Part shown: in pieces, positions 52,673 to 55,493 of the stretch
Position numbering within the stretch: position 1 is the stretch's first letter
How the letters are laid out: every line of letters starts with the position of its first letter
NCBI RefSeq assembly: GCF_030685535.1
Contig: NZ_CP131599.1
Coordinates: forward strand, 248,001 to 312,000
Direction: 5' to 3'
Source: Photobacterium leiognathi
GTDB taxonomy: Bacteria > Pseudomonadota > Gammaproteobacteria > Enterobacterales > Vibrionaceae
Length of the DNA: 64,000 nucleotides
Translations under genes and position numbers: made by a program
The notes under the pieces: model-generated
Database searches by the model: none
The model's input: the letters and a program-made list of their open reading frames with translations, nothing else
Told to the model about the DNA's origin: nothing

Positions 52673-53956
52673 TTAAATTTTATTAATTTCTGAATTAAGT
52701 CGTCCAAATAGAGGTGATAATTGTCTACGAATAGAAGAACTATTCATTTTTTTTGCAGCTGAATATCCATATGTTATAAAATTTCTTTTACCTAAGTGAG
52801 AATATCGACTATATAATTTACGTTTAAAAATCAATCTTTCTTCTTCTTGGTTAGCTCTTCTTATCTTGTTATATTTTATCATTGTATTTTTAGCTAATCT
52901 TACCCCTTTATGCATTCTGCTGGAATATATTGCTAAAGATGATGAGCGTATATATATTTCTTTACCATCAAAAATGAAGCCTAAATATTGTAAAGGCTTA
53001 TCTGATTTTAATTTATTATCTTTAAATTGAAAATTTCTAATTTCTGTTTTCTTTTTATTTAATTCTAACTTTAGGTTCTCTATTTCAATGGATGCTGTTT
53101 GTTCAACTATATTTTTATATTCAGTAGGGATGATGAAAAGAATATCATCACAGTAACGAAAATACTTACCACCGAATTGAGTTATAAAAGAGTTCATCTT
53201 CAAATCAAAATCAAACATATAAATGTTTGATAGCATAGCACTTAAAGGCGTCCCTTGAGGTATGCCAAATGAGTCTTTATGTACCTTTATAAGTTTATAT
53301 TTTCTTACGATCCCTCTGAAATCATGAGGTTCACAAATTCTACGTCTTTTTTTGTTTGGATTATTTAACGATATTCCTAGAGCCTTATATAAGTCTTCTT
53401 TTTTTACTTTAGAATATTTAGTTATTGATTTGAAAATATTGTAATGATCATTAGGAAGTCGTTTAACATCAAGTAAATTACACCATTTTAATTTAAGTGT
53501 CTCATGATCTAAAGTGTCAAAAAATTTAGTAATATCTAAGGCAACAGCACTACATTCACCTAATTTCTTAATTTCGTTAAATGCATTTAAAGAGAAATCG
53601 ATATTACTTTTACCGAGTGTTCTAAAAGCAAGTATTGAGTCACTTAGCCCATTTTCTTTTATCATTTTTTCATATTTATAGTTTAAAATTTTAGAGTAGT
53701 AAGAATATATATGACTATCAATATGAGCAGGATATGAAATCGGTCTTGGTTTAGGTTCTAATACCATAATATTTTTAGTTATGGGATTTTTGGTGATCTT
53801 ATTAATTACGATATCGTAATTAATAAGAGGATAAAAAGCATGTTTTGCAACAACTTCCGAGTCTGTAACTATTTTAGATGCTTTTTTGGAGTTTATAGGT
53901 AAATCGAAATGTATATATTTACGAGGTTTAAACCAATCTTTAATTAGAATTTTCAT
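52673..53956 (-). CDS. drt2: Antiviral reverse transcriptase, DRT2 (UG2) type
   Basis: 427 residues, one RT domain. Motif A: ALDITKFFDTLDHETL (Asp141, Asp147). Motif B: GIPQGTPLSAMLSN (231-244). Motif C: YCDD (268-271). Motif D/E region: LELNKKKTEI and LQYLGF. A basic C-terminal thumb follows (about 335-427). There is no maturase or HNH domain, so it is not a group II intron protein. Length, YCDD and a structured RNA just upstream on the same strand fit DRT2, in which the RT copies its own ncRNA by template jumping into a concatemer and phage infection then triggers expression of a toxic repeat protein. AAGG lies five bases before the ATG. The class assignment rests on architecture, not a database search. 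Confidence 0.85.
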   Translation of the reverse strand: MKILIKDWFKPRKYIHFDLPINSKKASKIVTDSEVVAKHAFYPLINYDIVINKITKNPITKNIMVLEPKPRPISYPAHIDSHIYSYYSKILNYKYEKMIKENGLSDSILAFRTLGKSNIDFSLNAFNEIKKLGECSAVALDITKFFDTLDHETLKLKWCNLLDVKRLPNDHYNIFKSITKYSKVKKEDLYKALGISLNNPNKKRRRICEPHDFRGIVRKYKLIKVHKDSFGIPQGTPLSAMLSNIYMFDFDLKMNSFITQFGGKYFRYCDDILFIIPTEYKNIVEQTASIEIENLKLELNKKKTEIRNFQFKDNKLKSDKPLQYLGFIFDGKEIYIRSSSLAIYSSRMHKGVRLAKNTMIKYNKIRRANQEEERLIFKRKLYSRYSHLGKRNFITYGYSAAKKMNSSSIRRQLSPLFGRLNSEINKI

Positions 53957-53960
53957 TGTT

Positions 53961-54220
53961 ACCTTAGAGGGGCAAAACCGAAGGAGCTAGGACTGCGGCG
54001 CTCCATCTGAAAAATCAGAGCGCTCCTTCGGATATTAACAGGTGCAGAGACCGTCATTCGTAGCCTTAAAAACTACCAATAGCCGCGGTATGTTCAATAT
54101 CGAATATGCTATCACTGTAACAGTAACACTGGAGGTATCTATGAAGACACTCATCTATGCATTGCTGTCATTCTGCACAACAAGCTTGTTGGACAGGTTT
54201 GACAGCTTGTTAAGCACTTT
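53961..54220 (-). ncRNA. DRT2-type template RNA upstream of the reverse transcriptase
   Basis: A GC-richer, structured block in AT-rich surroundings, read on the RT strand. Visible stems: GCTGTCA (54206-54200) with TGACAGC (54170-54164); GTGCAGA (54178-54172) with TCTGCAC (54048-54042), closing about 125 bases; and CCGAAGGAGC (about 54031-54022) with GCTCCTTCGG (about 53987-53978), enclosing GCGCTCTGA-TTTT-TCAG-GAGCGC. The first two stems interleave, so a pseudoknot or a switch is possible. GAATGAC occurs at 54173-54167 and 54059-54053. The 5' end is uncertain; a TTGACA lies at 54286-54281 but no good -10 follows it. Confidence 0.8.
54053..54173. repeat. Direct repeat GTCATTC bounding the predicted 114-nt template unit
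   Basis: GTCATTC at 54053-54059 and 54167-54173 (+ strand; GAATGAC in the RNA), exactly 114 bases apart. If the RT jumps between them, the concatemer unit is 54053-54166. The length is 38 codons, so a frame can continue from unit to unit. Confidence 0.8.
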
Positions 54221-54224
54221 TTAA
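54141..54224 (+). other. Seed frame of the predicted endless repeat ORF (cDNA strand)
   Basis: On the strand complementary to the ncRNA, GGAGG at 54131-54135 lies five bases before ATG 54141. In the chromosome the frame runs 27 codons to a TAA at 54222 (MKTLIYALLSFC ...). In the predicted concatemer it would instead continue at TCA TTC into the next unit (MKTLIYALLSFVALKTTN) and never meet a stop, giving a 38-residue repeat. The frame is open from 54039 through the whole unit. I found no confident promoter within the unit; TTAAAA-17-TATGTT (54066-54094) is weak. Confidence 0.75.
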
Positions 54225-54608
54225 TCAATTGCTTACGCAAATATTAAAAGCGATTCTAGTTTCTTTAATAACTATAATGATGTCAATAAAATTAAACATA
54301 ATGGCAAGGTTTTTTATCTTCACGTTGTATAAATAGTATTAATATTTGTTATTGGTATAAATTCATCTGTAAGTTGTTACTGAATATAAGTGATTAATAA
54401 ATAAATGTTTAATTTATTTGTTGAGCACTCGTTATTCTCTTTATTTCGTAAGTTACACTTTCACAGCTGCGATTTATATCACGCTCTTTTGTCTAACTTT
54501 TTAGATATTGGTTTAATTTTTAAAGCTATTTGCTTTCAAGCTACTTTGAAAGCGTCATTTAACGTATAAATTACTGTTATTAAAGTTAATATCACCTAAT
54601 AACGGGTT
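54225..54608. other. Intergenic region between the defence locus and the nuclease-like gene
   Basis: About 380 AT-rich bases. They must hold the ncRNA promoter (minus strand) and the promoter of the gene at 54624. No gene or other RNA was recognised. Confidence 0.4.
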
Positions 54609-54623
54609 ATGAGAGAGCCTTGT

Positions 54624-55493
54624 ATGACAGCTAAAATTTCGACCTCACAGCTTGCGAAAGCGAGAGGTCTTGCAGCAAAAGCGCTATTTAATCAATTAGC
54701 CGATGCAGGCTATATCACCCGAGATAACGATGAATGGCATTTAACAGAAGTGGGTAAAAACGCCCAAGGTGAATACAAACAATCACCTAAGTTTGGGCAA
54801 TACATTGTCTGGCCTGATTCGTTAGAGATCGTTGAACAACCAGAGTTTGATGGTAAGAAGCTATCAGCGACCCAAATTAGCACTCATTTCAATTTAACAT
54901 CTCAGAAAATAAACCAAATTTTAGATGAGCTAGGTTGGATCAATAAAGCGGTTAAAGGTTGGAAAGTCAGTAACTCAGGGCTTCGTCTTGGTGGGGTACA
55001 AAAAGAAGACTTTAGAACTGGCGTACCTTATGTGATGTGGGATGAAAGCGTGCTTAAAAACAGCAGCTTAATTCACTCGGTTAACGAGATCACAGGAGCA
55101 AATGCCGAAGCGAAAAGCACTGATAATTCAGTTTCGAATTTCCGTCAGAAGTTTGAAGCCAAACACCGCGCCGCAGATGGGCATTATGTTCGCTCGAAAG
55201 CTGAAATGCTGATTGATAACTGGCTGTATATGGCTGGTATCGTTCATGCCTATGAGCGTAAGTTGCCGATTGAAGAAGATCTGTACTGTGATTTCTATTT
55301 ACCGACAGGCAAGGTATATATCGAATTTTGGGGCTTGGAAGATGATCCTAAATACGCCGATAGAAAAAAAGTGAAGCAAGATCTGTATGCTAAATACGGT
55401 TTTAATTTGATTGAATTAAACGATGACGATGTGCAGAACCTTGATGATGTGTTGCCTCGTATGTTGCTTAAATTCGACATTAAGGCGTATTAA
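54624..55493 (+). CDS. Putative PD-(D/E)XK nuclease-like protein with N-terminal winged-helix regions
   Basis: 289 residues from the ATG at 54624, chosen because GAGAGCC lies upstream at good distance. Residues 1-60 (STSQLAKARGLAAKALFNQLADAGYI) and 85-130 (LSATQISTHFNLTSQKINQILDELGWI) look like two winged-helix domains. Residues 185-285 carry VRSKAEMLIDNWL, DLYCDFYLP and KVYIEFWG, an E-D-ExW arrangement like Vsr/PD-(D/E)XK endonucleases; the last Lys is replaced by Trp. It is probably a DNA-binding nuclease-like protein. Whether it belongs to the defence locus or to the core chromosome is not clear. Confidence 0.6.
   Translation: MTAKISTSQLAKARGLAAKALFNQLADAGYITRDNDEWHLTEVGKNAQGEYKQSPKFGQYIVWPDSLEIVEQPEFDGKKLSATQISTHFNLTSQKINQILDELGWINKAVKGWKVSNSGLRLGGVQKEDFRTGVPYVMWDESVLKNSSLIHSVNEITGANAEAKSTDNSVSNFRQKFEAKHRAADGHYVRSKAEMLIDNWLYMAGIVHAYERKLPIEEDLYCDFYLPTGKVYIEFWGLEDDPKYADRKKVKQDLYAKYGFNLIELNDDDVQNLDDVLPRMLLKFDIKAY

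Follow-up and report, generated by a model that had tools for sequence, protein, structure and literature searches.

In the DRT2 system of Klebsiella pneumoniae (KpnDRT2; chain 9c0i), cDNA synthesis on a noncoding RNA ends at a TGT copied from a first ACA triplet (ACA-1). This end re-anneals to a second triplet (ACA-2) beside the template start, and synthesis repeats (PMC11100668, PMC12039810). The -35 and -10 elements are joined across the resulting junction at 17 bp, and units are divisible by three in 42 close homologs, with lengths of 120, 117, 111 and 129 nt named. Annotation of Neo is described as "more challenging" in divergent DRT2 (2024 preprint, PMC11100668), and the accessible text of PMC12596737 holds nothing further on the junction. 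In a 64,000-nt window of the Photobacterium leiognathi chromosome (NZ_CP131599.1, positions 248,001 to 312,000, forward strand), we examined a locus that, by sequence and comparison, is a DRT2 antiviral reverse transcriptase (RT) with an upstream noncoding RNA.

The RT gene (52673-53956, minus strand) encodes a full-length protein of 427 aa with a YCDD motif and, as in the Drt2 family (about 425 aa), no further domain. It scores 577 bits against the NCBIfam Drt2 model NF041746 (cut-off 390) and 493 bits against the solved Drt2 chain 9c0i, and is assigned to Drt2 by PADLOC. The nearest named protein, 86% identical, is also from Photobacterium leiognathi. The genome holds one Drt2 gene; two other RT matches are short parts of other open reading frames, of 430 and 566 aa (L002, G000:C1:373350-373610 and L003, G000:C3:3006594-3006875). 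A plus-strand gene (54609-55493) adjoining the noncoding RNA has a 404-bit match to PDC-S69, which PADLOC lists as a candidate defence protein. Given this match, DRT2 may belong to a small defence island next to glpT.

The noncoding RNA is predicted to span 53969-54238 on the minus strand, its 3′ end set by a match to the Rfam family RT-12 (RF03016) and its 5′ end placed, after Klebsiella, 28 nt before the take-off triplet. Alignments support a conserved 3′ scaffold (53969-54095, minus strand) which begins at the landing triplet, as RT-12 itself does; the RT-12 match is sub-threshold (31.8 bits, E 0.0011; gathering score 44.2) and carries an insert in one hairpin. RT-12 exceeded its gathering score in 9/10 relatives scanned, the exception being the Psychromonas locus L034 described below. 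Folding of the RNA was only moderately more stable than that of shuffled sequences (z -2.36; 3/200 shuffles as stable). For wider searches, a scaffold model (R1) was built from 30 loci. Since the P. leiognathi locus is one of its training rows, its own R1 match is circular, and since RNAalifold gave only five base pairs for the scaffold, R1 is nearly a sequence profile. A search of E. coli genomes for the noncoding RNA gave no match.

Upstream of the scaffold lies a predicted template of 117 nt (54094-54210, minus strand; neo read on the plus strand), equal to 39 codons. It is bounded by matching triplets, a take-off ACA-1 at 54208-54210 (TGT on the cDNA strand) and a landing ACA-2 at 54091-54093, both on the minus strand; these were assigned from the sequence and an alignment of relatives, the landing triplet also from the RT-12 match. 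On the plus strand, a perfect -35 element (TTGACA, 54199-54204) and a -10 element matching at 4/6 positions (TATGCT, 54105-54110) become adjacent, at 17 bp, only across the 117-nt junction, and would form a sigma-70 promoter there. AATAT (54096-54100) stands where Klebsiella has its DNA primer GATAT, and may play the same role. When the unit is circularised, one frame, on the cDNA strand and antisense to the RNA, is endless, and the other five contain stops. The unit includes a Shine-Dalgarno sequence (GGAGG, 54131-54135) and an in-frame ATG (54141-54143), and lies within a linear 60-codon open frame (54042-54224, plus strand). Taken alone, the endless frame is weak evidence, as 260/1000 shuffles of this unit also gave an endless cDNA frame. 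The first-pass annotation, which had proposed a DRT2 with a neo-like endless frame, was right about the system, strand and reading frame. It had also located the GGAGG and ATG correctly, and had rightly expected a unit somewhat below the 120 nt of Klebsiella in length.

KpnDRT2 and the P. leiognathi locus share RT family and length, an upstream noncoding RNA, ACA-1 and ACA-2, a promoter rebuilt at the junction with 17-bp spacing, a Shine-Dalgarno sequence with start codon, and an endless frame antisense to the RNA. In the published accounts available to us, KpnDRT2 differs in its 120-nt unit, its TATAAT -10 and its GATAT primer; its Neo sequence is presumably different too. The nearest relatives, Aliivibrio sp. 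EL58 (L033) and Psychromonas sp. Urea-02u-13 (L034), are sister rows in the RT tree (SH-aLRT 99), with RTs 69% and 66% identical to that of P. leiognathi. Both have the same triplets, -10 and position of the Shine-Dalgarno sequence and ATG, and a similar Neo repeat. The L033 unit is 117 nt, like that of P. leiognathi, whereas that of L034 is 129 nt; the distance from ACA-2 to the RT start is 100 nt in L033 and L034, compared with 137 nt in P. leiognathi. Upstream of its RT, L034 carries two tandem copies of TGTCAA (a doubled -35 complement) beside ACA-1, and two matches to the TwoAYGGAY RNA farther upstream.

When 22 upstream regions, P. leiognathi included, were aligned, most rows showed a single order of the triplets, the complements of the -35 and -10 elements, and the complement of the ribosome binding site. 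In L040 the motifs are missing, and the landing triplet of L046 and L047 is ATA. We then searched 100 sources with R1; 80 had a match, giving 81 matches. A weak additional match in L116 was set aside, and merging of duplicates reduced the remaining 80 to 74 distinct loci. Three weak loci (L099, L101 and L206; E 0.28 or more) were dropped, one of which (L101) also had no -35 anchor, leaving 71 strong-scaffold loci that include P. leiognathi. Within 80-200 nt, the -35 served as the anchor for placing the take-off triplet, a rule blind to triplet identity, divisibility and frame. It replaced two earlier motif finders that mispicked or missed loci (the second, for example, L034, L053, L061, L076 and L080).

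Unit length was divisible by three in 70/71 loci, and the unit was endless in the same phase in 69/71; single-base shuffles of 70 units predicted 7.6 endless in the neo phase. Two ties (L034 and L080) were settled by their ACA candidate, and counting L080 as a miss gives 69/71 and 68/71. A Shine-Dalgarno sequence with an in-frame start was present in 64/71 loci, a count without a shuffle control. The exceptions were L085, from a Thiotrichales MAG, with ACA/ACA bounding a 108-nt unit and a stop in the neo frame, and L040 (Marinomonas fungiae), without template motifs. In L040 the RT is 57% identical and the scaffold matches (L040:1863-1987), and the template upstream of it has neither triplets nor promoter parts; its sequence would fit a decayed or altered neo. 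A triplet-blind motif rule was applied to 24 loci that were divergent or weakly matched, L206 again included; it added 10, and the 14 without a unique good candidate were left out.

Between the P. leiognathi unit and that of L033, we counted 7, 4 and 7 changes at codon positions 1, 2 and 3, and 5 synonymous against 10 other codon changes. Codon-position counts among near relatives gave no pattern of purifying selection on Neo codons, and hence no sign of selection on the Neo protein sequence itself. This agrees with a published comment that the DNA motifs can account for most of the conserved residues of Neo (PMC12039810).

Additional searches extended the set little. A locus in the same genus (G399) was treated as a duplicate of L046 (Photobacterium aquimaris), which it equals in identity and length. 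Among 11 genomes of the G144 genus, DRT2 was present in one, which was already part of the set. Viral contigs searched with the P. leiognathi RT alone and with an Acinetobacter RT gave nothing useful, and a phage search returned three distant records. The Acinetobacter RT found 28 plasmid records, and among the 15 listed, most repeated the earlier plasmid set. Genome searches at class and phylum level yielded a single additional locus (L204), the upstream region of which duplicates that of L048.

Where the jump occurs is the point on which the first-pass annotation and the present analysis part. It had proposed that the enzyme jumps between two copies of GAATGAC, making 114-nt repeats in which the peptide ALLSFVALK would span the junction. 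The two copies are indeed present (GTCATTC on the plus strand, 54053-54059 in the scaffold and 54167-54173 in the template), 114 bases apart, and of the six frames of the circularised 114-nt unit just one, a cDNA-strand frame, is endless, with stops in the other two cDNA frames and the three opposite ones. However, such a repeat is expected by chance: the 304-nt region 53957-54260 contains six repeated 7-mer pairs, while 1000 dinucleotide shuffles averaged 3.0 and 90% of them had at least one pair, and we read both copies as chance. The open frame does not discriminate either, since the linear frame 54042-54224 is itself open and most start and end choices within it are endless (1236/1278 for lengths of 90-150 nt divisible by three); openness cannot pick the junction. 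Because the RT-12 model begins at the landing triplet, the copy at 54059-54053 lies about 32 nt beyond it, inside the scaffold, and among 81 units only the P. leiognathi locus has GAATGAC in both template and scaffold. The 114-nt unit also stops short of the -35 (54199-54204) and takes no account of the triplets that relatives conserve. A stem considered as framing that unit (GTGCAGA, 54042-54048, with TCTGCAC, 54172-54178) was absent from the predicted fold and from the conserved order of the relatives, and was rejected. By the published ACA rule and the comparison with relatives, the unit is predicted to be 117 nt and the 114-nt proposal is probably wrong; we regard jumping between the GAATGAC copies as highly unlikely. 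With the junction at the triplets (54208-54210 and 54091-54093), ALLSFVALK is not predicted and FDSLFNIEYAITV is expected in its place.

Two other readings concern what the 117-nt unit does. The system may look intact and be inactive, owing to a weakened -10 or scaffold; the TATGCT hexamer and the sub-threshold Rfam match with its hairpin insert would fit this, and the frame and motifs are insufficient to establish activity of a DRT2 system. Against it, the RT is full length, the frame and all the motifs are intact, and the -10 complement AGCATA recurs in L033, L034 and several Vibrio-type relatives; we consider inactivity very unlikely. Alternatively, the 60-codon frame could be a small gene of the usual kind, translated directly from the chromosome, being open and containing GGAGG and ATG. 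It has no Pfam or PADLOC match, though, the promoter elements stand in the wrong order on the chromosome, and the stretch that stays open in relatives is the circular unit (69/71 endless across the junction) and not a linear gene, which makes an ordinary gene extremely improbable.

A concatemeric neo gene is thus our preferred reading: very probably, the noncoding RNA is copied head to tail from 54094-54210 into a concatemer with a promoter at each junction and an endless 39-codon neo frame. Sequence and comparison establish the DRT2 identity of the enzyme, both triplets, the spacing of the motifs, a frame free of stops and the conservation of these features in relatives; template use, promoter function, translation and defence are proposed by analogy with the Klebsiella work. 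By that analogy, the RT would copy the RNA up to the take-off triplet (54208-54210), and the TGT end of the cDNA would re-anneal to the landing triplet (54091-54093) and prime further rounds. On phage infection, double-stranded cDNA would accumulate, the rebuilt promoter would be read by host RNA polymerase and ribosomes would begin at 54141. The repeat protein (NIEYAITVTVTLEVSMKTLIYALLSFCTTSLLDRFDSLF)n would then arrest the cell, likely halting phage-infected cells.

Across the 71 loci, take-off and landing triplets were paired as ACA/ACA (48), ACA/GCA (9), ACA/ATA (8) and GCA/GCA (2), with single cases of ATA/ATA, GAT/GCA, GCT/GCC and TGT/AAG (L040). On paper, the landing triplets of the 17 ACA/GCA and ACA/ATA pairs can still bind the cDNA end by standard or wobble pairing; a further one-sided change, ACA/ACT (L089), cannot. 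With the ten added divergent or weak loci included and L040 excluded, 14 loci had a take-off triplet other than ACA, and in 7/14 the landing triplet was identical: L008 (ATA), L081 and L090 (GCA), L102 (ATC), L104 (TTG), L206 (ACT) and L086 (ATT). Permuted pairings gave a mean of 0.78 matches and reached seven in 0/20000 cases. Among 221 offset pairs the expected offset was highest (7), followed by a one-base shift of both ends (5); the others averaged 0.36. The seven loci without a match were L088, L083, L096, L111, L120, L207 and L210, and the 14 are partly non-independent, L111 and L207 being sisters in the RT tree. By eye and outside this count, L095 (ATC), L112 (ATT), and L099 and L101 (TTG) also match, L101 and L112 being among tied candidates. 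L206, on a Nitratidesulfovibrio vulgaris plasmid, combines ACT/ACT and perfect -35 and -10 elements with a 145-nt unit that is not divisible by three.

In the RT tree, L008 (ATA/ATA) groups with seven ACA/ATA rows in a set of eight (support 100), the pattern to be expected from drift that began at the landing site; long branches leave the positions of L104, L120, L206 and L210 uncertain. Identical non-ACA triplets would represent natural covariation that favours jumping by triplet homology, and may be new. We found no report of such covariation in the main texts of the literature searched, as far as these were available; the preprint's fig. S6 may show some. We consider it likely that the DRT2 jump signal is a free address and not a fixed ACA, with take-off and landing sites changing together (ACA, AUA, GCA, AUC, AUU, UUG, ACU) through wobble-paired intermediates such as ACA/AUA and ACA/GCA, so that neo would exist in divergent clades missed by a search for ACA.

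The locus would thereby be a Photobacterium member of the known group of systems in which a gene is made from an RNA. The peptide prediction separates the two junctions, as the tryptic peptide spanning the 117-nt junction would be FDSLFNIEYAITVTVTLEVSMK and that from the 114-nt junction TLIYALLSFVALK. The covariation would provide evolutionary evidence for short-homology template jumping that is independent of the published Klebsiella mutants. It also suggests a rule for finding neo in divergent DRT2 systems, which is to anchor on the promoter parts and not on ACA.
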